Origin: Clostridium sp. AM58-1XD
GTDB taxonomy: Bacteria; Bacillota; Clostridia; Lachnospirales; Lachnospiraceae
Direction of reading: 5' to 3'
Assembly (NCBI RefSeq): GCF_003464085.1
Contig: NZ_QSDR01000037.1
Location: 1 to 36,723, forward strand
Length of the DNA: 36,723 bases
Part shown: positions 25,569 through 36,723 of the stretch, in pieces
Numbering within the stretch: position 1 is the first letter of the stretch
Layout of the letters: each line of letters opens with the position of its first letter
Notes under the pieces: generated by a model
Told to the model about the DNA's origin: nothing
Database searches by the model: none
The model's input: only the letters and a program-made list of their open reading frames with translations
Program-made: the position numbers and the translations under genes

Positions 25569-26355
25569 TTACGTGGCATCTCCCAGGCGTATAACAGTAA
25601 GTGCAAGGTCCTCAAACGTAAATCCATCCTCGCTTGCAATAACCTGAAGCGTTGCCGGAACCGCAGTTACCTGGAACGGCACGCTGAAAGACATCGTGGC
25701 AACTTCATTTGTTGACGAAAATGTGTGGCTCGCTACAGCGCCGGCTACCGGTGCTCCATCCAGGTTCAGCCTCGCTAAAACGGATGAAGGGATCGTAGTT
25801 CCCGTATTGACGGAAACCGTGCCGTGGAAGGTTGCCTGGTAAATACCCGGCTGATTAATCATAATATCGGTCGATCCTGCCTGGTGGGTGATTGCGGACC
25901 CAGAGACAAGAGGCGTATCCGTAAATACGAGCGCCGTATTGGCAGTTGTCGGCTGGGTAGCTGAGTTAACCGTCGCCAGAACTTCTGGTGTGCCTCCTGA
26001 TCCCGGTTCCCCACGGGGTATCACAAAGTCAAAAATTGCGTCTTCATCCGTACCGGAATTCGTTACCTCTGCCGGTGTTCCCGGATCACCCGTTGTCACC
26101 GAACCAATTCGGATGGTTGCTGCCGCTCCTGTGGGACCTGTTTCTCCCTGTATTCCCTGCGGACCTTCCGGACCAGTCGGGCCTTCCGGACCAGCGTCTC
26201 CCTGTATTCCCTGCGGGCCTTCCGGACCGGTTGGACCTTCCGGACCAGCTGTTCCTTCTTCTCCCTGTATTCCCTGTGGACCTTCCGGACCGGTCGGGCC
26301 GGTCGGGCCTGTCGGACCCGTAACTCCTGTTGCTCCTGTCGCTCCTGTGGAGCCA
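25569..26355 (-). pseudogene. Collagen-like (BclA-type) surface or exosporium protein, 5' part cut off by the integrative element
   Basis: The remaining reading frame has about 25 Gly-X-Y triplets. These include a repeated 15-16-residue unit built from [16 protein letters not shown], then a hinge ([13 protein letters not shown]) and a C-terminal jelly-roll-like domain of about 130 residues (S-G-S-A-I-T-H, I-N-Q-P-G-I-Y, L-T-V-I-R-L). This is the build of BclA-like exosporium and other clostridial collagen-like proteins. The triplet pattern begins abruptly at about 26,355 with no start codon; the next 40 nt belong to the element end. An open frame continues to a TTG at 26,381 without a ribosome site. 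The missing N-terminal part should lie past the right end of the element. Confidence 0.85.
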
Positions 26356-26381
26356 TGGATAATAAGAAAACCAACTATCAA

Positions 26382-26407
26382 TTAAAATGCGGTCATATTA
26401 AACCGCT
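26382..26407 (-). terminator. Short hairpin at the recombinase stop codon
   Basis: On the minus strand GCGGT and ACCGC pair across the TAA stop and are followed by ATTTTAATT. A weak terminator right at the element end, which may limit read-through into the collagen gene. Confidence 0.45.
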
Positions 26408-28089
26408 TCGGAATGGGTGTTGATTTCAATAAAATCCTGCACCCGGCGGAGTTCATCAGCAAAGCGAAGAACAATGCTGATATTGCCGCCTTCATAAACT
26501 GTGATACTGTCAACAAGATCAATCAGAATATCCCTTGATAGTGTGGTAACATTTTCGTATTTGCGAAAGGCAACCAGAAAAGGATTTTCAGTGTCTACAC
26601 CGTTTTCTTGTTCGGCCCTCTCGTTTTGTAGTTTTTTAATCGTTGTAGTTATCTCTTTTTCCTGTGCTTCATAGTCCTCCCGCATACGGCGGTAATCGGT
26701 CTGGCTAATCTCGTTGTCTTTCCAATCTTGATAAACAGCCTGTTTATATCTAATTACCTTGGCAAGCTCCCGTTCCTTTTTGGAGATAGCCTCCAACAAT
26801 TTCTTATCCTGGCTCTTGATGATTGGAGCCCTGTTAATCTGTTCAATGATTTTTGTATAGTCGATTGCAAGGTATACATACTGCTGAATTGCAAACAGGA
26901 CAGCCGCTTCTAAGCGGTTATGCTGTATGGAATGTTTCGTACAGGCTTTTTTTGACCGTCTCTTATAAGTCGAACAGTAGTAATATACATGTTTTTTAAC
27001 TTCACTTCTTATCATAGCTTTTTCGCAGTCAGCACAACGCAGGAAACCACTGAACAAATATAGCGTATCATTTTTAGGAGATGTGCGGGTGTCCTTCTGT
27101 AATAACCGCTGAACTTTATCAAAAATTTCCCGGTCGATAATTGGCTCGTGAGTTTTTTCTTTAATAAACCATTCGTCCTCCGGGACTTTCTCCTGAATAT
27201 GGACTTTGTAACTTTTTATACGATAACGCCCTTGTACCATATCACCGCAATACATTTGATTTTTAAGTATGTCCCCCACTGTCTTTTCACTCCAAAGAGG
27301 GTTTTTTGTTGGGTCACTGTGCGGATTTTGGTACTTCAAGCCTAACCGCTTTTGTTTATATACCGTTGGACAGAGAATACTATGGTCGTTTAAGTACCGT
27401 ACAATAGAGAGTTTACTCATACCAGCCAGATATTTCTCGAATATCTCCTTTACAATTTCAGCGGCTTCTTCATCAATAATAAAAGCATTTTTATTTTCTG
27501 GATTTTTCAAATAACCGTATGGGGCAAATGCGCCGATAAACTCACCATTGTTGCGTTTTGTCCGAAATGTCTTTCGTACATCTTCCGACGTTCTGGCCGC
27601 GTAACGGTCATTCATAAGGCCATTTATTGGGATTTCCATGTTTTGCGTACAGTCAGGGTTTGCGAATGTGTCAACGTAGGGATTGCCAAATGCGATAAAG
27701 CGGCAACCGTATGTAGGGAGATACTGCTCCAGAAACTTCCCCTGGTCGGCATAGTTACGAAAGGCCCGGGCAAGAGTTTTGCAAACAACGCAATTCACAT
27801 TACCCTCACGAATGTCTTTTGATAACCGTTGAAAATCAGGTCGTGTGTCCTCTGTTGTTCCAGAGCGTCCATCATCTACATAAATATCATAAATGATATA
27901 CGTTTCGTTGCAGAATTTTTCTTCCACAAATTCCAGATTGATTTTTCTCTGGTTGGTTACACTTTCGGATTCATCATTATTCCTTAAATCCTCTTTGGAA
28001 AGTCTGATATAAATACCGATTTTCCATTCAAATGATTTTACGCTTTCCTGCTTTTGAGTTTCAGTGATAACACGGCTCTTTCGCGCCAT
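26398..28089 (-). CDS. Large serine recombinase (element integrase, TndX/TnpX-like)
   Basis: 563 residues. The resolvase domain has the nucleophile Ser 31 in I-Y-I-R-L-S-K-E-D and the D-D-G-R-S-G motif near 72-77. The recombinase domain starts at about 200 (Y-G-Y-L-K) and a zinc ribbon at about 350-390 (L-R-C-A-D-C ... Y-Y-Y-C ... C-T-K-H). A C-terminal coiled coil follows, rich in Lys/Glu. This is the architecture of integrases that insert and excise conjugative transposons via short cores. The stop is about 45 nt from the collagen-gene junction, the usual place for such a gene. GAAGGAGG precedes the ATG; the promoter at 28,123-28,151 is near consensus. Confidence 0.95.
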   Translation of the reverse strand: MARKSRVITETQKQESVKSFEWKIGIYIRLSKEDLRNNDESESVTNQRKINLEFVEEKFCNETYIIYDIYVDDGRSGTTEDTRPDFQRLSKDIREGNVNCVVCKTLARAFRNYADQGKFLEQYLPTYGCRFIAFGNPYVDTFANPDCTQNMEIPINGLMNDRYAARTSEDVRKTFRTKRNNGEFIGAFAPYGYLKNPENKNAFIIDEEAAEIVKEIFEKYLAGMSKLSIVRYLNDHSILCPTVYKQKRLGLKYQNPHSDPTKNPLWSEKTVGDILKNQMYCGDMVQGRYRIKSYKVHIQEKVPEDEWFIKEKTHEPIIDREIFDKVQRLLQKDTRTSPKNDTLYLFSGFLRCADCEKAMIRSEVKKHVYYYCSTYKRRSKKACTKHSIQHNRLEAAVLFAIQQYVYLAIDYTKIIEQINRAPIIKSQDKKLLEAISKKERELAKVIRYKQAVYQDWKDNEISQTDYRRMREDYEAQEKEITTTIKKLQNERAEQENGVDTENPFLVAFRKYENVTTLSRDILIDLVDSITVYEGGNISIVLRFADELRRVQDFIEINTHSEAV

Positions 28090-28115: not shown

Positions 28116-28141
28116 CACCTATATTATACCATGTATAGGTG
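28116..28141. promoter_or_regulatory. Inverted repeat over the recombinase -10 box (probable operator)
   Basis: CACCTATA (28116-28123) and TATAGGTG (28134-28141) are perfect inverted copies flanking the -10 box. A repressor bound here would block the integrase promoter. The likely binder (XRE protein or the recombinase itself) is a guess. Confidence 0.5.
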
Positions 28142-28151
28142 GTGTGAACAA
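28123..28151 (-). promoter_or_regulatory. Recombinase promoter
   Basis: On the minus strand TTGTTC (28146-28151), 17 nt, then a perfect TATAAT (28123-28128). The -35 is the first part of a 35-bp element repeated at 34,580. Confidence 0.8.
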
Positions 28152-28181
28152 TGTTGTCGAGCCCTTGCAAATCTTGTCCCG
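28147..28181 (-). repeat. Copy 1 of a 35-bp promoter-upstream element
   Basis: 32 of 35 positions equal those of 34,580-34,614. It contains the palindrome AACATTGTT-type core near the -35 box and two direct TTGTC words (plus strand) about 20 nt apart. Both copies hold the same position relative to a -35 box. Confidence 0.75.
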
Positions 28182-28189
28182 AGGCCGAC

Positions 28190-28219
28190 AAAAACGGCCT
28201 GCACACTGATTACAGGCCG
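28190..28219 (-). terminator. Bidirectional terminator at the end of the DUF6870-like gene
   Basis: CGGCCTG (28195-28201) and CAGGCCG (28213-28219) with T5 on both sides. The TAA stop codon sits in the loop. Confidence 0.75.
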
Positions 28220-28473
28220 CTCTTTTTACGTTGAAGGAAGTCAGTGAAGCAATCCTCAAGGGGCGGGGCGCTATCCAGAAATTCCAGTTTAACGCCCATA
28301 TCGCCCACCCGGAAGCAGTACGGATTTTTTACTTTGCGGAGCACCTGCGCCGCCCGCTGTTCTCTCGGAACCGTGTTATCGAAGGTCAGCCCGGACACGT
28401 CAACTAAGTCCTCTTTGTTGACTGTCGTTATATCAACGCCCGCGAGCTCCGTTAAATGAATTTGTTTTTGCAT
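28210..28473 (-). CDS. Small element protein, DUF6870-like
   Basis: 87 residues. The N-terminus Q-K-Q-I-H-L-T-E-L-A-G-V-D-I-T-T-V and the later R-K-V-K-N-P-Y-C-F-R-V-G-D match my memory of the DUF6870 family, found in conjugative elements of Lachnospiraceae and relatives. Function unknown. Start at 28,473 because of GGGGGCGA just upstream; eight more in-frame codons exist without a ribosome site. No membrane segment. Confidence 0.7.
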   Translation of the reverse strand: MQKQIHLTELAGVDITTVNKEDLVDVSGLTFDNTVPREQRAAQVLRKVKNPYCFRVGDMGVKLEFLDSAPPLEDCFTDFLQRKKSGL

Positions 28474-28583
28474 GGATATTCGCCCCCTTTCTTCCATGTG
28501 TATGTCATTCCCTGATTGTCCTATGAGGAAATGACAAAAGGCGGCCCGTTCTCACGCGCCGCCCTTTGCCATCTGCTCATAAG

Positions 28584-28608
28584 ACCTCGGGCCAAGTTGG
28601 CCCGAGGT
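28584..28608. repeat. 23-bp palindrome, copy 1 (CCTC-arm form)
   Basis: Arms CCTCGGGCCA/TGGCCCGAGG with loop AGT; one further A/T pair outside. 20 nt after the stop of the 66-residue gene. Confidence 0.9.
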
Positions 28609-28627
28609 CAGAGCAGAGAAGAGAGGT

Positions 28628-28828
28628 TTAGTAGGGACTCTGGCAATAGTGTTCGTCGGCTTCTTCAATAGATTTCATATCGAAAACCCAATGAAGCTCA
28701 CGAACCACCCGTTTAATATACTCGGGCTTGAAGTCACAGTTTTCCATCGCCCATATGACGTAACCGCGGCAGGCATTATTGCTCCACCGTTCGGTCAACA
28801 TCATATCCAAAGTCAAATCTTTTTCCAT
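28628..28828 (-). CDS. Small acidic element protein of unknown function
   Basis: 66 residues, no Cys-rich motif or membrane helix. Sequence like L-T-E-R-W-S-N-N-A-C-R-G-Y-V-I-W-A-M-E is seen in small proteins of related elements as far as I recall, without known role. GGGAG precedes the ATG. Its leader contains the strong hairpin at 28,856-28,915. A palindrome copy follows the stop. Confidence 0.7.
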   Translation of the reverse strand: MEKDLTLDMMLTERWSNNACRGYVIWAMENCDFKPEYIKRVVRELHWVFDMKSIEEADEHYCQSPY

Positions 28829-28855
28829 TTCGATTCTCCCTATTCAAAAATAGGT

Positions 28856-28915
28856 GGAGCGCCGCGCCGGGAAGTTTTGGGCTGTTATCGGACAGAATAT
28901 CCGGCCCGGCGCTCC
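28856..28915 (-). other. Strong two-tier hairpin in the leader of the 66-residue gene
   Basis: GGAGCGCCG (28856-28864) pairs with CGGCGCTCC (28907-28915), and GCCGG (28866-28870) with CCGGC (28901-28905), with one unpaired C on each side. A CTGT/ACAG hairpin sits in the loop. 27 nt upstream of the start codon, so it may control translation or mark an RNA end. Confidence 0.65.
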
Positions 28916-28932
28916 TGATCGTTTACTTACAC

Positions 28933-29213
28933 AGATACCCCGGACGGGCGGCGGCTTGTCCACCCCATAGGAATTTCACCTCTCCCCATTCTTATGGCAA
29001 GGCGTTCTCAATGCCTGCGACGGCTCACGGCCTTTGGCCGCTTCAACGCTCGGACTATGACTAAACGCAAGTATCAAGGCTTGTCTGCTTTATCCGGCGG
29101 AACCAGCCTCGGCCCGCCTGCGACATGGGCCTTGTCGCTCTCTCTATTCTCTGGCAATAGAGGTCATGGCGGGCCTGTCACTCAGCATACACACCCTTCG
29201 TATCCGGGTATCT
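28933..29213. ncRNA. Candidate structured RNA of about 280 nt
   Basis: AGATACCC-CGGA (28933-28944) pairs over 260 nt with TCCGGGTATCT (29203-29213), 11 bp with one bulge. On the plus strand this closing stem is followed by TTTTT. Inside lie AGGC/GCCT near 29,000-29,015, CGGCC/GGCCG (29028-29040) and an outer arm GGCCCGCC/GGCGGGCC (29111-29118 / 29168-29175). That arm encloses GCGACA/TGTCGC and CTCTATT/AATAGAG, a three-way junction. The only open frame over it (28994-29221) has no ribosome site. Strand and identity are unproved; the T tract favours the plus strand. Confidence 0.5.
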
Positions 29214-29251
29214 TTTTATGAAATTGTCAAGCTGCACGGGGGAGCTTCAAG

Positions 29252-29273
29252 CCTCGGGCCAACTTGCCCGAGG
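29252..29273. repeat. 23-bp palindrome, copy 2 (one base shorter)
   Basis: CCTCGGGCCA, loop ACT, then TGCCCGAGG with one G missing from the right arm. 52 nt after the sigma-factor stop. Confidence 0.85.
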
Positions 29274-29324
29274 TAGTTATCCCTCTCAATAGCCATGAGA
29301 ATAAACGGGCAAAATCGGGCCGGT

Positions 29325-29747
29325 TTAGATACGATTTTTCAAAAAAATTTCCATGTTGCGGAGCCCGCGCTCAATCGAAGTCCGAACTGTTTTCTCATGG
29401 ACTCTCTCGGCTCTTGCAATTTCAACTTTGCTCATTCCGAGTATGTAATGAGCGTAAACCCTGCGGCTCTGCATTTCCGGGAGCGAAGCGAGGGCCGCGC
29501 GGAGCTCCTGCGCCGTAACCTTGCGCTCGTAAAGCTCACAGGGAGACAGGGCAACGAAAAGAGCTTCATGCTCGATACCGTCTCCGGCGTCCAACGAAAA
29601 ATACGCTTTGTTCCAATACACACGGCGGATATAGTTCCGCTCCATGCGCTCGGCCTCGGCCAGAGCCGCCGCCACTTCGTCAGAGACTTCCACAAACAGG
29701 TCGTTATGATAAAACGGGTACAGATCCCGCAAGTTGATTTTCTTCAT
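29325..29747 (-). CDS. Sigma-70-family-like factor of the element
   Basis: 140 residues. The C-terminal half has a sigma region-4 helix-turn-helix (L-P-E-M-Q-S-R-R-V-Y-A-H-Y-I-L-G-M-S-K-V-E-I-A-R-A-E-R), the pattern seen in sigma-like regulators of Clostridia conjugative elements. No region 2 is seen, so it may be a region-4-only regulator rather than a full sigma factor. Start 29,747 is fixed by GGAGGT 9 nt upstream; a longer frame to 29,924 would run through palindrome copy 3 and is not credible. Flanked by palindrome copies on both sides. Confidence 0.85.
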   Translation of the reverse strand: MKKINLRDLYPFYHNDLFVEVSDEVAAALAEAERMERNYIRRVYWNKAYFSLDAGDGIEHEALFVALSPCELYERKVTAQELRAALASLPEMQSRRVYAHYILGMSKVEIARAERVHEKTVRTSIERGLRNMEIFLKNRI

Positions 29748-29837
29748 AGTGATACCTCCATTTCGGTTTTGGTGGACGAGTGAACCGAAATGGAGAGGGC
29801 GGGGAGCGGCAGCGGGGCAACTCCCCTTTGTTTGGAA

Positions 29838-29860
29838 CCTCGGGCCAAGTTGGCCCGAAG
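29838..29860. repeat. 23-bp palindrome, copy 3 (mixed arms)
   Basis: CCTCGGGCCA, loop AGT, TGGCCCGAAG. On the minus-strand RNA the odd pair is a U-G wobble, so the stem is kept. 91 nt upstream of the sigma-like start. Confidence 0.9.
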
Positions 29861-30198
29861 CCAGTTTGCCGCAAATGAAAAGCGCCCGTATAGCACAAGG
29901 CCAAACGAGCGCAAGAACAAACACTATTAGTTCCTCTTAAATGATGTGTATAGGTAAATGGAGGAGCGCAACTATGGACATAAAGGGTCAGGCTTTTTTT
30001 AAGAAGTAGAAGTTTGACTGATTATGTCGAATATAATGGTTCACGGCGATACCCTCCTTGTACCGCCGTGTCCTCTAAATAGGGCGATTTTATCACACCC
30101 TCCGTTATTCTTATTTCCAAAAAGAAAACGACGGCTTTGATTGCTATTTCAAAACCGCCGTTAGGCTACTGTATTTTGTTTAGGCGCATAACTATCCT

Positions 30199-30242
30199 AC
30201 CGCCAAACAACGGTTTTTTTTATTTACCGTTGAGCGGTTTTG
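30199..30242 (+). terminator. Hairpin terminator upstream of the XRE gene
   Basis: ACCGC/GCGGT and AACGGT/ACCGTT arms around a T-rich loop, followed by TTTTG. Confidence 0.5.
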
Positions 30243-30346
30243 CTGTTTCATGTACATAATTGGTGTTATTTAGGTAAACTCTATGTGTTGTATACTCATT
30301 TCATTTTGAAAATTGGAGCTATACAATGTAATAGGGTGATTTATTT

Positions 30347-30709
30347 ATGAGAAAACCAACAGAAGTCTATGACTTCAAGGCTTTCGGACAGGCCATCAAA
30401 GCGGCCAGGAAGGCCAAAGGCTACACCCGGGAGCGGTTAGGGAAAGAACTTGATATTGCCCCACGCTATCTCGTCTCAATCGAGAATGAAGGCCAGCACC
30501 CGAGCCTGCAAGTTTTTTATGAACTTGTGACCTTCTTTGATATATCGGTAGACCAGTTTTTCTTTCCGATGAAAACGCCGGATAAGACTACACAGCGCCG
30601 ACAACTCGATGAACTTCTAAATGGCGTTGATGAAACCGATCTTGTCATTGTATCCGATACCGTAAAGGGAATACAAAAAGCCAAAGAAGCCAGAAAAGCG
30701 GAGGCGTGA
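30347..30709 (+). CDS. XRE-family helix-turn-helix regulator
   Basis: 120 residues. Cro/CI-type helix-turn-helix in the first 70 residues (I-K-A-A-R-K-A-K-G-Y-T-R-E-R-L-G-K-E-L-D-I-A-P-R-Y-L-V-S-I-E-N), then F-F-D-I-S-V-D-Q-F-F-F-P and a short charged tail. This is a common regulator of Clostridia conjugative elements, the only plus-strand gene of the element here. It probably represses or switches element genes; targets unknown. GGGTGA precedes the ATG. Confidence 0.9.
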   Translation: MRKPTEVYDFKAFGQAIKAARKAKGYTRERLGKELDIAPRYLVSIENEGQHPSLQVFYELVTFFDISVDQFFFPMKTPDKTTQRRQLDELLNGVDETDLVIVSDTVKGIQKAKEARKAEA

Positions 30710-30773
30710 TAGCCCCCGCTTTTTCATTTGACAATACAACATTTTTTTGTTGCAGCAGCGGCTACTTTATAGA

Positions 30774-30796
30774 CTTCGGGCCAACTTGGCCCGAAG
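30774..30796. repeat. 23-bp palindrome, copy 4
   Basis: CTTCGGGCCA/TGGCCCGAAG, loop ACT, perfect. 8 nt after the flavin-reductase stop, in a convergent gap with the XRE gene. Confidence 0.95.
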
Positions 30797-30803
30797 CAAA
30801 CGC

Positions 30804-31487
30804 TTAATTCGTAACCCACTCAATAGGAACATCCGGTTCCAATGTTCCGTGATTTATCGGCGTGATCTCACCTGTTTCTGGATTGGTCGGTTGGTCGATT
30901 TGATATAAATATCCACTCTTTCCGTATCTGCCGAGCAAACTTTGGTCGTAGCGTTCTCTATCCATACAAATGTTGACGGCTTTCAATGCAACTGCAACTT
31001 CTTGACTTCCCTCGAAAAGCTCATGTTCCCACAAATATTCACATTCGATATTCAAAAAGCATTCTTTAATTTGTGGAGCGTTGACCATTATGGCTTTCTC
31101 CGCAGTTAAGCCAGAGGCGGTAATTTCATCTGTTTCAAACTGATTGTTGCCAATCGTTTTTATACAGCGGTCATAAATGTCGATAGATGGGAAATTTAAT
31201 ACACATACTTTTGTTTCTTTCAGCGATTGATACATATGCCCGCCTCTATTAACCTTTCCCATGATACATATAAAGTTGTCAGCTCCACTTCCGGCAAAGG
31301 TAGACCAAGATTGCAGACAGGCGTTTTCCTTACCGTTCGATTTCCAGCCTGTAACGAGGAATACCAACGATGGCATGGCTGTCACAAAATCGTACCATGA
31401 CAAATTACCACAGGCAGCAAAGTATTGCTCCGCTTCATATCCGGCAAGTTTTTCCGGCCTATCTGTAATAGATATTTCTTTTTTCAT
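30804..31487 (-). CDS. Flavin reductase-like FMN-binding split-barrel protein (cargo)
   Basis: 227 residues of the flavin reductase family: P-S-L-V-F-L-V-T-G at the first strand, S-W-S-T-F-A-G-S for FMN phosphate contact, and R-G-G-H-M-Y-Q-S-L-K-E-T-K-V-C-V-L-N-F-P typical of the clostridial subfamily. Such proteins reduce flavins or act as redox partners or nitro/quinone reductases. Start 31,487 by GGAGGA 6 nt upstream; 11 more in-frame codons exist without support. It is AT-richer than the element backbone and lies behind a WYL regulator, so likely a stress-inducible cargo. Confidence 0.85.
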   Translation of the reverse strand: MKKEISITDRPEKLAGYEAEQYFAACGNLSWYDFVTAMPSLVFLVTGWKSNGKENACLQSWSTFAGSGADNFICIMGKVNRGGHMYQSLKETKVCVLNFPSIDIYDRCIKTIGNNQFETDEITASGLTAEKAIMVNAPQIKECFLNIECEYLWEHELFEGSQEVAVALKAVNICMDRERYDQSLLGRYGKSGYLYQIDQPTNPETGEITPINHGTLEPDVPIEWVTN

Positions 31488-31529
31488 ATTCAATTCCTCC
31501 ATTTGTTTTAATCGTAACACATGTAATAC

Positions 31530-31550
31530 GACACCTTTATGTCCTATTCC
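31530..31550. promoter_or_regulatory. Putative WYL operator before the flavin-reductase gene
   Basis: On the minus strand GGAATAGGACATA, then AAGG and TGTC; GACA/TGTC are inverted. The same 13-bp word occurs before the WYL gene. It overlaps the WYL stop codon. Confidence 0.5.
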
Positions 31551-32458
31551 TCGTATTGAGCTAACATGTTTTTGGCCTTTTTACGGATTTCATTCACTAA
31601 TTCACAAGGTTCAATAACTTTTACTGCCTCTCCATAACTAAGTATCCATTGAACTAAATAATTATAATTTGTAAAAACATTTTCAAAAAGCAGTTTGCCA
31701 GATTGATGGTCTAATGTTATACATTCCGGGCCATATTCATCAATCAGTCTATATTTTACACTCATATCAAAAAGGGCTACCAGTTTTATATCGTCACGCC
31801 AAATATATTGGTCAAAATCAAGTTCTTTTTCTGAAATAAATCTTTCCTCATAATTTGTTTTTAGATTCTGTAATTTGCTTAAACGATTTAATTTGAAAAG
31901 TCTATAATCTTGTTGAGTAAGGCAGTACCCGTAAACATACCATGCAAACCACCTAAATATTATAAAATAAGGCTCAATGGTACGTTCACTTTCTCCTTTT
32001 TCAGAATAGTAGTGGAATAAAATCAGTTCCCGATTGTTAATAGCCTGTTTTATTAAATCTATTTTTTCAGTTAGGCTTACTTGATAAAACGAGGCTAAAC
32101 TAATAATAATTTTGTTTTGATCGGAAAGGATTGAGCTCTTATCGTGACTTAGTTTCTCCATCAGGCTTTGGGTATAAGGGTATTTTGAAATGGTATCAAT
32201 ACTCTTGAGGCCCATAAAAATAGCACTCAATTCTTTTTGTGTCAGTATTGTTTTATCAATTTTATAACCTTCTTCAATGGAAATCCCCCCGCCATATCCT
32301 TGCATGGACACAATAGGGATACCAGCTTTACATATATCATCAATATCACGCTGGATAGTCCTGCATGAAACCTCGAAGCGCTTGGCTAATTGAGAAATTG
32401 TTACTTTTTCCTTTTGCAAAAGTATTGTAATAATACCGATAAGACGGTCTATCTTCAT
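31544..32458 (-). CDS. WYL-domain transcriptional regulator (cargo)
   Basis: 304 residues. N-terminal DeoR-type winged helix (T-I-S-Q-L-A-K-R-F-E-V-S-C-R-T-I-Q-R-D-I-D-D-I), then a WYL domain with R-T-I-E-P-Y-F-I-I-F-R-W-F-A-W-Y-V-Y-G-Y-C and F-K-L-N-R-L. YafY/PafBC-type regulators sense nucleic acid or small ligands and often act on stress. Start 32,458 by GGGGTGAT; six more codons are open upstream. The gene is AT-rich, codon use differing from the relaxase, a sign of separate origin. 56 nt before the flavin-reductase start. Confidence 0.92.
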   Translation of the reverse strand: MKIDRLIGIITILLQKEKVTISQLAKRFEVSCRTIQRDIDDICKAGIPIVSMQGYGGGISIEEGYKIDKTILTQKELSAIFMGLKSIDTISKYPYTQSLMEKLSHDKSSILSDQNKIIISLASFYQVSLTEKIDLIKQAINNRELILFHYYSEKGESERTIEPYFIIFRWFAWYVYGYCLTQQDYRLFKLNRLSKLQNLKTNYEERFISEKELDFDQYIWRDDIKLVALFDMSVKYRLIDEYGPECITLDHQSGKLLFENVFTNYNYLVQWILSYGEAVKVIEPCELVNEIRKKAKNMLAQYEE

Positions 32459-32474
32459 ATAATCACCCCATGCC

Positions 32475-32510
32475 ATTATAACATGGAATAGGACATATGT
32501 ATGTCTTATT
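32475..32510 (-). promoter_or_regulatory. WYL promoter with inverted-repeat operator
   Basis: TATAAT on the minus strand (32475-32480). An inverted repeat AATAGGACATA/TATGTCTTATT (32487-32510, one mismatch) covers the -35 position. The word GGAATAGGACATA (32485-32497) recurs at 31,538-31,550. Suggests autoregulation. Confidence 0.6.
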
Positions 32511-32706
32511 TCTTTGTTATCTTTTTCAGCCTACCGCTAAACGGCAAGCGATGCAAGTGTCTATACACTTGCGAATTTTCCACGTTCCGGCTCCCGCCGA
32601 AACCTGAAAAATCCCGCTTGTTGGGGCCAGCCCCAAACCCTGCGGAACCTCGGGCCAACTTGGCCCGAAGCTCCGTCGCTCCGCTCGATTGGTTGCGTCT
32701 CATTCG
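32511..32706. other. Gap between the WYL promoter and the relaxase stop
   Basis: No gene seen. Contains hairpins GCAAGTG/CACTTGC and TTGGGG/CCCCAA and palindrome copy 5. It marks the join between AT-rich cargo and GC-rich backbone. Confidence 0.45.
32648..32670. repeat. 23-bp palindrome, copy 5 (mixed arms)
   Basis: CCTCGGGCCA, loop ACT, TGGCCCGAAG; wobble pair on minus-strand RNA. 37 nt after the relaxase stop. Confidence 0.9.
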
Positions 32707-34131
32707 CTATCGCTCCTGTTCCTTATTTTTCTCCTGCCCGGTCAGGCCGAGCAGATAATCAATGTTTGCTTTTGCCGTTGTGACTTCCCGCATATCTTTC
32801 CGGGCTTCCCGGTACTCGGCGTAGAGCTCCTTTTTTTCAGCCGCCAGCCTGCGGCCTTCCTCCTTCTGTTTCTCCATCTTTGGGAGCTTCGCCCCGTCCA
32901 GAATGGCACTCATTTTGGCCCGGGCCGCCCGGTAAATCTCAATATCCGCCTCATGTTCTGCAAGGAAATTTTTACTGTACCGTGAAGCCTTGTACGCCTC
33001 AAACACGGGGTGGGTCTTTGCATAGTTTACCGTGGCTCCTTTAAGCTCCGCATTGGCGGCAAGCGCGGCCTCCACCGACTTGATTTTTCCAGCCAGAACG
33101 TGAAACCGCTCCGTGGCCTCCCCGGCCTTTTTCTCCAACTGCTCATACTCCGTCAGGCCGTTGTCCTGCAAGTAAGCCAGAGCCGCCGCCATCTGCTTTA
33201 GGTTGAATACTTTTGCCCACCGCTCATAGGCCGGGCCTTTTCCTTGAAGCCGGTTCTGAATGTCGATAATCAGGTTGAGCCTTCGGCCCGGCTTCACAGG
33301 CTCCGCCGCCCGGCTGGAGGGCAAGGGGGCGCGGCCTTCGATAACGGCCCGTATATCCTCCGGACTATAACCTTCCCCGAGTGTGGAGGCCCGGCAACGG
33401 GTAAACCGTTCCTGTCCGGGACAGCGAAACGAGAGAGAGCCGCCGCGCCCGTGTTTGACCTCGTAGCCCGCCGCCTTCATCAGTGAGAGAAACGCGGCAA
33501 AATCGGCGGGCTTCTGCAAGAGGGCCGCGTCGATCTGCGCCCGCAGCCGCTCCTGAAAGGTGGGCGGTTTGTTATCCTCAAGCCATTCCCCGTAATTCTT
33601 AAACTTGCCTTTACTCCGAGGCTTCGGATTTTTCACAATCGAAAGCCCGTGTTCCAGACAGATCCGGTCACTTACCCGCCGGATTGCAAAAGAACTGTTC
33701 CAGAAATTCCGAAACTTCCGGGTATAGTCAAGGGACGTTGAATTGTAGTAAATATGGTTGTGGACGTGTGCCTTATCAATGTGTGTTGTGACAATAAAAG
33801 CGTGGTTGCCTTTTGTCCAGCTCATGCCGAGCTCGTAGCCGATACGGTTTGCTTCTTCCGGGGTCACTTCTCCGGGGAGGAAGGATTGCCGTATCTGATA
33901 ACACAAAATGTCCTCGTCCCACTTCTGCACCCGGCCCGTGATGGCCTTATATTTGCTCTTAGAAAGCAGAAATTCCGCGTCCACCGTGGCCGGGTCGCAC
34001 TCATAAGCGGAGATAAGTTTACCGCCCCGGGTCTTATCGGGATTTTTGCCGTAGTCAATACATTCCTTGATTGCCTCCGCTATCGTCTCCCCGACGTTGA
34101 TATGCCGGGTAAAATGGCGGGTAGTTGCCAT
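32707..34131 (-). CDS. Relaxase/mobilization nuclease (MOBP-type)
   Basis: 474 residues. The N-terminal relaxase domain has the metal triad His 122, His 124, His 126 in K-A-H-V-H-N-H-I, and candidate nucleophile Tyr residues in the first 45 residues (C-I-D-Y-G-K-N, S-A-Y-E-C). The C-terminal half is a Lys/Glu-rich helical region without a helicase. It nicks the transfer origin and pilots the strand into the recipient. GGAGGTGAG precedes the ATG. Gene order MobC, then CD1845-like, then relaxase fits CTn/Tn1549-like modules. Confidence 0.93.
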   Translation of the reverse strand: MATTRHFTRHINVGETIAEAIKECIDYGKNPDKTRGGKLISAYECDPATVDAEFLLSKSKYKAITGRVQKWDEDILCYQIRQSFLPGEVTPEEANRIGYELGMSWTKGNHAFIVTTHIDKAHVHNHIYYNSTSLDYTRKFRNFWNSSFAIRRVSDRICLEHGLSIVKNPKPRSKGKFKNYGEWLEDNKPPTFQERLRAQIDAALLQKPADFAAFLSLMKAAGYEVKHGRGGSLSFRCPGQERFTRCRASTLGEGYSPEDIRAVIEGRAPLPSSRAAEPVKPGRRLNLIIDIQNRLQGKGPAYERWAKVFNLKQMAAALAYLQDNGLTEYEQLEKKAGEATERFHVLAGKIKSVEAALAANAELKGATVNYAKTHPVFEAYKASRYSKNFLAEHEADIEIYRAARAKMSAILDGAKLPKMEKQKEEGRRLAAEKKELYAEYREARKDMREVTTAKANIDYLLGLTGQEKNKEQER

Positions 34132-34191
34132 ATCTCACCTCCATTCCATGAAGAACGGCGGCCCCGCAGAGCCGCCGTTTTGCTGTTCCTG

Positions 34192-34214
34192 CTTCGGGCC
34201 AACTTGGCCCGAAG
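34192..34214. repeat. 23-bp palindrome, copy 6
   Basis: Perfect CTTCGGGCCA/TGGCCCGAAG with loop ACT. 12 nt after the CD1845-like stop. Confidence 0.95.
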
Positions 34215-34226
34215 TCCCGCCGCCTG

Positions 34227-34520
34227 TCAGCTTGTGATGAACCGCCGGAGGGAATAGTTCAGCCCGTCCAATGCGCTGATGATAAATTCCGCGATAGCCG
34301 GGAGCCCATAGGGCGAGAGCAGGAAAGCCAGGACGAGAAACGCCACGCCGCCGACAGGCTGATGTTGGAGCACGAACAGGCCCACGGCAATCAGGGCCAG
34401 CACCCCGGAGGCCAGGGACAAAAGCCCCCCGGCTACGTCGAACAGGAACATCAGCACCGCCATCAAAAGCGACAGAACCAGCAGAAACGGCAACGCGATA
34501 ATCTTAAATATCAGTCTCAT
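34227..34520 (-). CDS. Small membrane protein, CD1845-like
   Basis: 97 residues with three hydrophobic segments and the conserved end L-L-S-P-Y-G-L-P-A-I-A-E. This matches the CD1845 family, named from Clostridioides difficile conjugative transposons; function unknown, perhaps part of the transfer apparatus. It has its own promoter at 34,556-34,584 and is bracketed by palindromes. Confidence 0.75.
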   Translation of the reverse strand: MRLIFKIIALPFLLVLSLLMAVLMFLFDVAGGLLSLASGVLALIAVGLFVLQHQPVGGVAFLVLAFLLSPYGLPAIAEFIISALDGLNYSLRRFITS

Positions 34521-34555
34521 ATAAACAGCCCCTTTCTTTGTTTTATCCTACTATA

Positions 34556-34584
34556 ATTTTACCATTTCAGGGGCCGGACAACAA
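34556..34584 (-). promoter_or_regulatory. Promoter of the CD1845-like gene (and probably the relaxase)
   Basis: On the minus strand TTGTTG (34579-34584), 17 nt, TAAAAT (34556-34561). The -35 is part of the second 35-bp shared element. Confidence 0.65.
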
Positions 34585-34614
34585 TGTTGTCGGGACTTTG
34601 CAAATCTTGTCCCG
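34580..34614 (-). repeat. Copy 2 of a 35-bp promoter-upstream element
   Basis: Same words as copy 1 (AACAATGTTGTCG, then TTGCAAATCTTGTCCCG on the plus strand), three mismatches between them. Same spacing to the -35 box. Confidence 0.75.
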
Positions 34615-34619
34615 GCATA

Positions 34620-34642
34620 CTTCGGGCCAACTTGGCCCGAAG
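34620..34642. repeat. 23-bp palindrome, copy 7
   Basis: Perfect CTTCGGGCCA/TGGCCCGAAG with loop ACT. 54 nt after the MobC stop. Confidence 0.95.
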
Positions 34643-34696
34643 CTCCCGGACAGAAAAAAAGCAGGGGAGCGAGGGCCCAGCCCCCGCTCCCCATGC

Positions 34697-35038
34697 TCAC
34701 AGCTCTACAATGGCGGATAGCTGTTTCAGTATGTCATTTATGCGCCCCCACAGCTCGGCGTAGTCCTGTTGAAGCCCGGCAATTTCGTTCGGGTATATGC
34801 CGTAGGTGTTGGCGTGGATCGCCACCTGATTCAGATTGTTGGAGCACCGCCGTTGCAGGGAAACCAGTTCCCGGACGGGCGAGAGGTCAACATGGAGGAT
34901 ATAGCCGTTTAAGGCCATCTTGCGGACAAAGGCGCTCATGTTGCGGACGCCTGCCTCGTCCATGCGGGCGTGAAGCTGTTCCAGTTCCTCCGGGGATACC
35001 ATCACATAAAGCGGGATATTCCGCCTGCGGCGGGGCAT
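34697..35038 (-). CDS. mobC: MobC-like relaxosome protein
   Basis: 113 residues. N-terminal ribbon-helix-helix (I-P-L-Y-V-M-V-S-P-E-E-L-E-Q-L-H), then the MobC signature L-S-P-V-R-E-L-V-S-L-Q-R-R-C-S-N-N-L-N-Q-V-A-I-H-A-N. MobC helps melt the transfer origin for the relaxase. The start overlaps the preceding stop (TAATG). Confidence 0.92.
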   Translation of the reverse strand: MPRRRRNIPLYVMVSPEELEQLHARMDEAGVRNMSAFVRKMALNGYILHVDLSPVRELVSLQRRCSNNLNQVAIHANTYGIYPNEIAGLQQDYAELWGRINDILKQLSAIVEL

Positions 35039-35220
35039 TACCGTTCCTCCCGCTCCCGGCTCCGCTTGTGGTGGGGCGGTTCCTTTACCTTATCCAGCGG
35101 CTTTTCCAGTTCAGGGGGAACCGGGGCGGGCGGCGTGTTGTTCAGCACACCGTCAATCATGTTGTAATTCTGTTCAGCGGAGAGCTCCGCCGACTTCAAA
35201 GGGTTATCCTTTTCCTGCAT
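35038..35220 (-). CDS. Small Pro-rich element protein, DUF4316-like start
   Basis: 60 residues. N-terminus with N-P-L-K-S-A-E-L-S-A-E-Q-N-Y-N-M-I-D-G resembles the DUF4316 family start (my recall), then a Pro-rich middle and basic end; shorter than usual members. Start 35,220 with AGGAGG overlapping the preceding stop. Function unknown. Translationally coupled to mobC. Confidence 0.6.
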   Translation of the reverse strand: MQEKDNPLKSAELSAEQNYNMIDGVLNNTPPAPVPPELEKPLDKVKEPPHHKRSREREER

Positions 35221-35230
35221 GAAATACCTC

Positions 35231-35749
35231 CTATCTTTCCTCATGGGCGGGGCTGCTTTTCTTTGCGGGCGGTTCCTGATGATCCTTTGCCTGCTTCGAG
35301 CCCTTGCGGAGCTGGGCGGCAATCGAAAGTTTTTCTCTGCGCTCCGCCTGTAATTCCTGCATAATTTCAAACCGCTCCGAGAGCTGTTCCGGGGTCACAA
35401 AGTCTTTCAGCACATAGGAACCAAAATCCGGGTGGAACCACGTCAGCCGTTTGCGCTCGGAGAAATGGCGGCTGTCCTCCCATTTTCCGAGGGCCTGTGT
35501 CTGTTCCTCCATGCGTTTTTTCAGGTCAGGATTTTTCCGGGAGGGTTTCAGTTCGTAGTCCTCCATCTGCTTATCTGTCAACGGCTTTGCGTAAATCAGT
35601 TCGCCCCACGCCTGGAAGGCTTCCCCCGGTATGGGAATACGAAAATCACAGTCATAGTTTTTAATCTCCACGGGCTTGTTGTCGGGCGGTTCAGGGAACG
35701 TCCACATATCCACTGGCCGCTGTGTAGAGTAGTATTTGTACCCGTCCAA
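35231..35749 (-). CDS. Element protein, LPD28-like (polyvalent-protein-associated domain)
   Basis: 172 residues. Y-Y-S-T-Q-R-P-V-D at the start, then F-Q-A-W-G-E-L-I-Y-A-K-P-L-T-D-K-Q-M-E-D-Y-E-L matches a domain I recall as LPD28, found in mobile-element proteins that often enter recipients. The C-terminal third is charged and Pro-rich. The start codon is TTG at 35,749, chosen because GGAGGA lies 6 nt upstream. Confidence 0.6.
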   Translation of the reverse strand: MDGYKYYSTQRPVDMWTFPEPPDNKPVEIKNYDCDFRIPIPGEAFQAWGELIYAKPLTDKQMEDYELKPSRKNPDLKKRMEEQTQALGKWEDSRHFSERKRLTWFHPDFGSYVLKDFVTPEQLSERFEIMQELQAERREKLSIAAQLRKGSKQAKDHQEPPAKKSSPAHEER

Positions 35750-35767
35750 ATAATTCCTCCTTTCCGG

Positions 35768-35790
35768 CTTCGGGCCAAGTTGGCTCGAAG
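35768..35790. repeat. 23-bp palindrome, copy 8
   Basis: CTTCGGGCCA, loop AGT, TGGCTCGAAG; one C to T change giving a G-U wobble on plus-strand RNA. 18 nt upstream of the TTG start. Confidence 0.9.
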
Positions 35791-35899
35791 TCCTTACTTG
35801 TTACGATTTCCCCCGCAAAACAGGGGTAGGACATAGATTTATATTAAGGCCGCTCAAACCGGGCGCGGAAAGCCCGGAAACACAGGGGTTTTACAGGGC
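35791..35899. other. Candidate transfer origin (oriT) region
   Basis: CCCCC (35810-35814), GCAAAACA and GGGG (35823-35826) form a short inverted repeat followed by TAGGACATAG and an AT-rich stretch. Position upstream of mobC and the relaxase and the look of the repeat suggest oriT of Tn1549-like elements as I remember it. The nick site is not proved. Confidence 0.3.
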
Positions 35900-36277
35900 C
35901 TAATCGTAACGCCGCCCCCTGTTTTTCTCCCGCTTTTTCCGCATACGCTCCCGGCTCCGGCGGCGGTTGCCCTCGGCCTTGCAGGCTTCGGAGCAGTAGG
36001 CTTGCCGTCCCTCGGGGATAAAGGCCCTCCCGCATACGGCGCAGCGCCTTATTTCCGGCCCCGCCGCCTCCCCCGTGAGGGAGGTTTCCAGCACCGGGGC
36101 CAGAGGCAGTACCGCCGCCCGGAAGTAGCGGCACAGGCTCCCCGTCCACCACTTGCCGAGCATATAGCAGGGGCAGTCCAACGGGAGACAGCCGTATTCG
36201 CTGTCATAGTTGGCGCACATACCCGTGACCAGCCGCCGGATTGTTTTCCTCTCGTCACGGGTCAGCTCCCGGCACAT
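35900..36277 (-). CDS. Cysteine-rich VLP-type protein
   Basis: 125 residues. N-terminal L-T-R-D-E-R-K-T-I-R-R-L-V-T and a Cys-rich block (M-C-A-N-Y-D ... C-L-P-L-D-C-P-C-Y-M-L-G-K-W) are the Cys-rich VLP family. A second zinc-finger-like block follows (C-A-V-C-G-R-A-F ... Y-C-S-E-A-C-K). Common in conjugative elements of Firmicutes; role unknown, probably nucleic-acid binding. Start 36,277 overlaps the previous stop (TAATG). Confidence 0.85.
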   Translation of the reverse strand: MCRELTRDERKTIRRLVTGMCANYDSEYGCLPLDCPCYMLGKWWTGSLCRYFRAAVLPLAPVLETSLTGEAAGPEIRRCAVCGRAFIPEGRQAYCSEACKAEGNRRRSRERMRKKREKNRGRRYD

Positions 36278-36453
36278 TACCGCTTCGGGCCAACTTGGCC
36301 CGAAGTCCTGCGGGGCTCTACAATCAGGGTGCGCCGCTTCTTCCTGCAATCGCCGCCGTGCTCCCGGCAGGCGGAGCAGGGCTCCGGGTCGCGCCGGGAG
36401 GGCCGGGGAACCTGCTTCATCATTCGCTCATAGGGGCTGTCGGTAAAATTCAT
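36277..36453 (-). CDS. Small Cys-containing element protein with palindrome-encoded tail
   Basis: 58 residues: M-N-F-T-D-S-P-Y-E-R-M-M-K-Q-V-P-R-P, a C-S-A-C and C-R-K-K-R block, then the end S-G-Q-V-G-P-K-R. That tail is encoded by palindrome copy 9, so the repeat has become part of the coding end. Start 36,453 by AGGAGG, overlapping the upstream stop (ATGA). Function unknown. Confidence 0.65.
   Translation of the reverse strand: MNFTDSPYERMMKQVPRPSRRDPEPCSACREHGGDCRKKRRTLIVEPRRTSGQVGPKR
36283..36305. repeat. 23-bp palindrome, copy 9 (inside the 58-residue gene)
   Basis: Perfect CTTCGGGCCA/TGGCCCGAAG with loop ACT. The only copy lying in a likely coding region. Confidence 0.95.
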
Positions 36454-36723
36454 TCCCTGTCCTCCTTCCCCGGTTCGTCTCCTTCCTCCGGCTCGTCCTC
36501 GTCCCACGGCGGGAGGTCGCTGTCCCCGTCCGGCTCGTCCCCTTCTTCCTCAAAGTCAATTTCTTCCTCGTCCAGATCGGGGGCCTGATGTTTCGGGCGG
36601 TATATCTTGAAGTACCAGCCGGCCCCGCCGCCGATGACCGCCACGGCCAGCACCAGAAGGATTGTTCCGATGGGACTGTCGTTCTTTTCGGGCTCCGGGG
36701 CCGGGGCGGGCTCCGGGGCGGGT
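36450..36723 (-). CDS. C-terminal part of a CD1107/DUF4366-like membrane protein (cut by the window edge)
   Basis: About 90 residues are visible: a Pro/Ala/Glu-rich linker (P-A-P-E-P-A), one membrane helix (T-I-L-L-V-L-A-V-A-V-I-G-G-G-A-G-W-Y) and a very acidic cytoplasmic tail. This is how I know the end of CD1107-type mobile-element proteins with DUF4366. The frame is open to the edge, so the start lies outside. Overlaps the next gene by ATGA. Confidence 0.7.
   Translation of the reverse strand, partial: PAPEPAPAPEPEKNDSPIGTILLVLAVAVIGGGAGWYFKIYRPKHQAPDLDEEEIDFEEEGDEPDGDSDLPPWDEDEPEEGDEPGKEDRE

Follow-up and report, generated by a model that had tools for sequence, protein, structure and literature searches.

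Palindromic repeats and genes of the integrative element

The window (the whole stretch of 36,723 nucleotides analysed, contig NZ_QSDR01000037.1 of Clostridium sp. AM58-1XD) contains one end of an integrative conjugative element (ICE), represented by genes for a recombinase, a DUF6870 protein, a sigma-like protein, a relaxase, a DUF5699 protein and MobC/NikA. This element carries nine copies of a 23-bp palindrome, or dyad, CTTCGGGCCAASTTGGCCCGAAG, analysed here as the putative binding site of a ParB-family protein of the same element. The following features were annotated (ORF, open reading frame; aa, amino acids):

26398–28089, minus strand, large serine recombinase, at the element's end
28210–28497, minus strand, DUF6870 protein, element backbone
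28585–28607, dyad site 1 (CC..GG form), 20 nt past the stop of a 66-aa ORF
29252–29273, dyad site 2, lacking one base; the near-twin element in genome G001 has the full-length copy
29325–29747, minus strand, sigma-70 region-4-like protein, element backbone
29838–29860, dyad site 3, upstream of the sigma-like gene
30774–30796, dyad site 4, 7 nt past the stop of a flavin-reductase-like gene
32648–32670, dyad site 5, 36 nt past the relaxase stop; within a 65-aa ORF, near its start
32707–34131, minus strand, MobA/VirD2-type relaxase, 99% identical to the relaxase of the G001 element
34192–34214, dyad site 6, between the DUF5699 gene and the relaxase gene; junction filled in 18/18 elements
34227–34520, minus strand, DUF5699 protein, element backbone
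34620–34642, dyad site 7, 54 nt past the MobC/NikA stop
34697–35038, minus strand, NikA/MobC-like protein
35768–35790, dyad site 8, 18 nt upstream of the ORF 35231–35749
35900–36280, minus strand, cysteine-rich VLP-type protein (start approximate; Pfam match made on the homologue in locus L131)
36283–36305, dyad site 9, at the Cys-rich VLP-type gene start; also encodes the end of a 76-aa ORF

Nine copies had been counted in a sequence-only reading of the window, and all are real: eight have at most 3 mismatches, compared with 0 expected in 100 dinucleotide shuffles, and the ninth is one base short. The same reading placed the palindrome in the element and not in the chromosome, mostly after minus-strand stop codons. 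Both statements agree with the data: no copy was detected in positions 1–28584 at up to 5 mismatches, and six of the nine lie 7–54 nt past such stops, as calculated from coordinates. The remaining three (29838, 35768 and 36283) are located upstream of minus-strand genes, and copy 36283 does encode the end (..SGQVGPKR) of the 76-aa ORF (36277–36507).

Distribution of the palindrome

Genome contigs were scanned for the exact core, which was required in one copy per stretch, and other copies were collected by a relaxed scan. The exact core was found in at least 120 genomic stretches, most of them from Clostridia and neighbours. Among the matches listed, a core element gene is present in 110 of 127 stretches (7 viral, 120 genomic) and in 85 of the 86 stretches with at least two copies, and is absent from 15 of 40 single-copy stretches. 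The viral contigs gave 7 loci, 5 of them beside an element gene, and one of these 5 contains more than one copy. In whole genomes, the palindrome is present in 34 of the 35 searched, with counts of 0–46 per genome, compared with 0–2 for the pattern read backwards.

The copies cluster in element-sized stretches; in genome G011, 19 of 21 lie within 32 kb. Twenty-one element regions were extracted and their genes annotated by comparing ORFs between regions; the ORF starts are often too long. The 16 fullest regions contain 13–25 copies each, mostly 15–25; the median spacing ranges from 0.9 to 2.7 kb and is about 1.2 kb in most regions. The element of the window has a near-twin in genome G001, which exposes what follows beyond the window edge. 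In 25 regions with other relaxases, a de novo dyad search gave largest clusters of 1–3 copies, as did shuffled controls (1–3); only G107 and a Subdoligranulum element reached 10 copies in this search. The palindrome is a mark of a clade of ICEs in Clostridia and relatives.

In some elements the central base (C or G) has a nearly uniform orientation (7/0, 0/6, 0/8, 1/10); in others both orientations occur (9/5, 5/7). Three adjoining different palindromes of similar general look were found in OY725877.1 (11867–11947).

The ParB protein of the element

The gene for a ParB_N protein (PF02195, E 2.9e-18) is located at the far end of the element; for the window's element it lies beyond the window edge and was read from the G001 near-twin (C1:4396923–4398309). 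The protein has an N-terminal extension of about 200 residues. A profile search matched it to structures of Spo0J, Noc and KorB, and its predicted core, with a predicted local distance difference test score (pLDDT) of 83.5, matched 7bnr (1.3e-11), 7ol9 (9e-11) and 8qa9, which is KorB (1.9e-9), in Foldseek. The TM-scores of 0.3–0.45 of the query and the high root-mean-square deviation are put down to probable hinging of the domains in the model. Residues G57, H58, R59, R60 and N92 are invariant, and R96 and E97 nearly invariant, in 31 sequences. Accordingly, the GxRR and NxxxRE-type motifs, together with an N-domain plus helix-turn-helix (HTH) fold, place the protein in the ParB/Noc/KorB family; a profile of the HTH alone gave no match in PDB.

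In the elements drawn (G001, G005, G011 and G027), parB lies farthest out of all backbone genes. It has the same orientation as the transfer genes and is flanked by one site on either side. A close ParB, defined by at least 62% identity, a cut chosen after seeing a gap at 54–62%, is present in 24 of 26 genomes with at least 8 sites and in 0 of 9 with at most 5 sites (35 genomes). Genome G211 contains a relaxase 58% identical, three GGGA-type dyads (C38:256, C38:4273, C15:10882) and, as the only ParB found, a distant one (33%).

A dyad inside the parB genes of relatives

A class-wide draw of 391 genomes gave 37 with a pattern match and 132 with a homologue of the element ParB, and several imperfect matches fell within those parB homologue genes. 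The interdomain linker of 27 of 32 non-redundant parB genes contains a dyad in which 8 or more of the 10 arm positions pair, compared with 3/32 and 1/32 for control segments on either side. The dyad lies 63–71, mostly 67–68, residues after the GHRR motif. The usual form is approximately CTTCnnnnCAASTTGnnnnGAAG, with AT-type ends in some genes and a variable 4-bp box in each half; the core motif missed one gene (L253). Synonymous shuffles rarely recreate the dyad (p<0.05 in 24/32 genes, compared with 1/32 and 1/32 for the controls). The box occurs in 16 versions in the 27 genes, yet 103 of 108 pairs are complementary, the maximum in 5000 half-swaps being 59. The window's palindrome has the same architecture, with the box GGGC. 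In the model of the near-twin ParB, the dyad codons (residues ~123–130) fall in the lowest-confidence stretch, between two domains.

A held-out set comprised 25 loci, of which 3 lacked a recognisable core and 11 were duplicates or at least 85% identical to training genes. Of the 11 left, 10 carry the dyad, in each case at residue 67 or 68, and the eleventh has a 7/10 dyad at 67. Private copies of the relatives' dyads were absent from up to ~20 kb on each side, except for one match with 4 mismatches; since there are nearly none, a single site, in parB, is what is seen outside the element clade.

In the Subdoligranulum plasmid OY725840.1, a related element contains ten dyads with box GGGA, three of them with GAGA in one half, and no ParB was found in the 91 of 94.6 kb read. 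A GGGA-box element was predicted to have a ParB with a matching site. This held on OY725853.1 of the same assembly: its ParB shares 53.6% identity with the near-twin protein, and a GAGA/GGGA site lies just after the gene; the helix of this protein (NYKK) resembles that of a distant GGGA-box ParB, L268 (SYKQ). The two records appear to belong to one element.

The box and the recognition helix

Boxes are associated with particular recognition helices: GCCG with SGDT (3/3); GTCC or TTCC with SRNQ or SKNQ (8/8); GTGC with SAR (2/2); GGGC or GGGT with SVKQ, TVKQ or TIKQ; GGGA with SYKQ or NYKK. In a test controlling for overall similarity, the best non-linker column of 159 is the third helix residue (K of TVKQ), with a partial r of 0.63, and the statistic of the four-residue helix block is 0.949, compared with a permutation maximum of 0.517 (0/2000 permutations). 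This statistic was calculated for 38 proteins and the left box only, with seven boxes taken from dispersed sites (G005, G027, G008b, G021, G004a, L322 and L254). Without these seven proteins the result is again 0/2000, the linker column, which is trivially linked, ranking first and K second. In both runs G001 was assigned the box GGGC, the halves of its linker dyad reading GGAC and GGGT, and L258, with its 7/10 dyad, was likewise assigned a box.

In the held-out set, the training match gave the exact box for helix pairs GD, GI and KN; 3 of 4 bases for RE and KT, compared with 0 and 2 from the nearest relative; and 2 of 4 for KS and RN, compared with 1 and 2. Three further helix pairs had no training match. 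Proteins L359 and L257, 87% identical, differ in helix (KT and GD, respectively) and in box (TGCC, in a 10/10 dyad, and GCCG); this pair is a natural specificity switch.

Proposed role of the sites

Because the parB genes of relatives carry the linker dyad and its box tracks the recognition helix, the palindromes are interpreted as parS- or operator-like sites. The palindrome is very probably the DNA-binding site, of the parS or KorB-operator type, of the ParB-family protein of the same element; binding sites were among the functions guessed in the sequence-only reading, and this guess is supported by the same two lines of evidence. A ParB dimer would bind each dyad with one helix per half-site and, judging from the motifs alone, may load as a CTP-dependent clamp and slide. 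Some 20 sites, mostly ~1.2 kb apart, would let ParB coat the element. The sites would most likely serve to control and maintain the transfer region over the whole element in a KorB-like way, since parB is outermost, runs with the transfer genes and is flanked by sites, and no ParA was found in the 21 element regions.

More broadly, it is likely that a ParB family of Clostridia and neighbours carries a centromere-like site in the linker codons of its own gene, and that this site was amplified ~20-fold in one conjugative-element lineage for long-range control. With the site placed within disordered-linker codons, gene and site would travel together and specificity could diversify; the multiplied sites would allow the element to be bound by its own clamp over most of its extent. 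This reading makes a testable protein–DNA system out of a hitherto unexplained repeat, found in conjugative elements that are common in Clostridia from gut and soil. The linker dyads give the probable site of each ParB from its own gene and form a natural library of ParB–site pairs for studying the recognition code and the evolution of specificity.

A number of observations weigh against this interpretation. The parB gene itself is outside the window and known from the near-twin. Close ParB is absent from G002, with 9 sites in small scattered groups; from G013, the element of which is on a 19.8-kb contig; and from small site clusters in G017 and G029. A distance of ~70 kb separates the listed sites of G107 from the closest ParB in that genome. 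The linker dyad is absent from many element ParBs (G005 type), G021, G004a and L254, and in L258 it reaches only 7/10. The single-site parB genes are not surrounded by private copies of other boxes. The code is imperfect, TGTC occurring with SATQ and SKSQ and CCGA with HPRQ and SGRQ, and the overall nearest relative also gives the three exact held-out boxes. In a first screen of gene content, families fam23, fam16 and fam20 were as element-specific as ParB.

The same ParB sites could also serve as true parS centromeres, with a ParA supplied by the host or by a plasmid in the same cell partitioning the excised, replicating circle, an explanation that overlaps with the preferred one and differs in the use of the sites. 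Active partition of SXT/R391 ICEs has reportedly been observed (PMC4489591). The hijacking of parS by an integrative element is known (PMC10954446), and in 12 of 23 regions of relatives parB has a ParA gene next to it. However, tblastn with two ParA queries detected no ParA in the 21 element regions, several of which are truncated contigs, and a single site is enough for the relatives within the searched stretch. Partition is considered a possible but rather unlikely use.

DNA dyad or RNA stem

The sequence-only reading noted that the second base pair changes together (CC..GG or CT..AG), and considered a folded stem under selection and stabilisers of RNA 3' ends. The co-change is real and holds in larger samples: both sides of pair 2 are changed in 10 cases, compared with 3.4 expected, and in 15, compared with 3.2 expected, in two samples. 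It fits a kept palindrome, in RNA and DNA alike. RNA hairpins stabilising or processing mRNA 3' ends in a long operon would also suit the strong stem and the position of the sites, 110 of 146 tabulated junction sites lying 0–28 nt past a stop and the rest 44–174 nt.

Mixed copies in the window had been described as keeping a wobble; this is true of two of the three, which give U-G on the transcribed strand, and not of copy 35768, which gives A-C. No significant preference for wobble was found over the larger sets: mismatched pairs are G-U in 44 cases and A-C in 57 (p 0.23) in 212 gene-oriented copies, and 54 and 41, respectively (p 0.22), in 210 non-redundant copies of 339 oriented ones. Arm changes without compensation, named in the earlier reading as evidence against its stem, were found in related elements at pair 8 (CG 164, CA 18, TG 17, TA 1). 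A run of at least four T follows 13 of 210 copies, compared with 9 of 210 in the upstream window; intrinsic terminators were therefore ruled out, there being no clear excess of T-runs. Selection for an RNA hairpin is rejected on these oriented wobble counts, since a stem acting in RNA should be enriched in G-U pairs on the strand that is transcribed; the box also tracks a protein recognition helix. Hairpins acting in RNA are thus very improbable, and neither the selected stem nor the stabilisers of the earlier reading were upheld; a palindrome selected as DNA fits better.

Position and conservation of the copies

Selfish or neutral palindromes, like repetitive extragenic palindromic (REP) sequences or Rickettsia palindromic elements (RPE), could have spread through the element. 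Copies do occur both in gaps and in frame within proteins, for example in the N-terminal part of the C40 peptidase, and the dyad has no stop codon in any of six frames, one of which reads SGQLGPK. However, at shared junctions the arms are 93% identical, compared with 45% and 44% for the 25-nt flanks (11 junctions with at least 4 non-redundant contexts; gap lengths are rough, because of the overlong ORF starts), and occupancy is largely conserved. Among 24 backbone junctions seen in at least 4 elements, 8 are always occupied (18/18, 14/14, 13/13, 11/11, 8/8, 7/7, 6/6 and 4/4), 7 are never occupied (0/17, 0/16, 0/16, 0/14, 0/13, 0/12 and 0/10) and 9 are mixed (for example, 6/19, 3/13 and 5/13). 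At the empty junctions the ORFs overlap or lie close together, the median distance to the following ORF being at most 18 nt. REP/RPE-type dispersal over the host genome was not observed, copies being concentrated in element stretches apart from the small scattered groups of G002, and the sites coevolve with ParB. Selfish spread is accordingly a highly unlikely explanation. Joints for module exchange, another suggestion of the earlier reading, found no support: 15 of the 24 junctions are always or never filled, and the longest cargo stretches are free of sites, with gaps of up to 8.4 kb in G005 and G011.

Other candidate binding proteins

In the first screen, the SpoVG-like family fam23 was found in 19/23 site-bearing and 0/25 site-free regions, the sigma-like family fam4 in 21/23 and 5/25, and parB (fam17) in 16/23 and 1/25; many of these regions are truncated, and the site-free group includes G211 and Subdo2, in which a few variant dyads do occur. 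Proteins of the SpoVG type bind nucleic acid. SpoVG (fam23) was dropped as the binder after the parB relatives with linker dyads were found mostly to lack it. That the sites belong to another protein of the element, above all fam23 or fam4, is scarcely credible, since 21 of 23 regions around the relatives' parB or variant sites have parB with a linker dyad, but fam23 was detected in 4 and fam4 in 2 of them, and the box tracks the ParB helix.

In site-bearing elements, genes for SpoVG and DUF7007 lie between those for PrgI and VirB6 (e.g., L143:13798–14745); the Tn1549-type elements compared have an MT-A70 methyltransferase in this position.

Other features of the window

A collagen-like gene of Gly-X-Y repeats (25569–26381) adjoins the element. 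A collagen-like ORF is also present at the outer end of the G001 element (L140, L142), and the G009 element has similar ORFs next to it; the recombinase may use such repeats as its target. The Rfam search gave one match, unrelated to the palindromes: RF02913 (pemK RNA; 28965–29084, minus strand; 37.5 bits, cut-off 34.8), in the stretch that separates the 66-aa ORF from the sigma-like gene. Two 59-nt repeats, 76% identical, are located upstream of the recombinase (28123–28181) and beside MobC (34556–34614), and are a possible origin of transfer (oriT) or operator pair.

Comparison with known systems

The canonical chromosomal parS consensus is TGTTNCACGTGAAACA, and the element dyad does not match it. 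Chromosomal ParB/parS and Noc/NBS systems share with the present system the fold, a palindromic site and a specificity partly set by the recognition helix; their sites are strongly conserved, whereas here the box varies among relatives. In Caulobacter ParB, residues R173 and Q162 are described as parS contacts, and R173 as a specificity residue (PMC7383237). In an alignment by eye, R173 corresponds to V of TVKQ, the second helix residue, and Q162 to N ten residues before the helix. The site parS-359 of B. subtilis lies within parB (PMC4442127). An adjacent parA, as in ParABS-type systems, was found in 0/21 element regions.

The IncC plasmid R55 has 14 putative dispersed inverted-repeat parS sites and SGI1 has two, and binding of ParB to three sites was demonstrated by electrophoretic mobility shift assay (PMC10954446). 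Dispersed inverted-repeat parS sites along one mobile element are the feature in common. That system differs in sequence, in host and in having ParA; moreover, relatives of the element ParB also carry dyads in the parB linker. Conjugative elements of the Tn1549/CTn type share genes for relaxase, MobC, VirB4, VirD4 and C40 peptidase. For the vanB element of pJEG050 and for two others like it, the 41 kb read of each contained no dyad at up to 5 mismatches.

A literature search of limited reach gave no paper with the core sequence and none on a linker-embedded parS. As far as searched, the fixed linker position, the diversity of boxes with a helix code and the amplification along an ICE are new.

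The O_B site of KorB is unlike the element dyad in sequence. KorB of plasmid RK2, the nearest model for the present system, is a CTP clamp with O_B operators near and far from promoters, and represses replication and transfer genes (PMC11790492). The likeness lies in the ParB-family protein, the fold of which matched that of KorB (8qa9), as given above. The element's sites differ in lying mostly just past stops inside the transfer gene cluster, and KorB belongs to a Gram-negative plasmid, whereas the present system belongs to an integrative element of Clostridia. Clamp control of the KorB kind may thus exist in integrative elements of Gram-positive bacteria.

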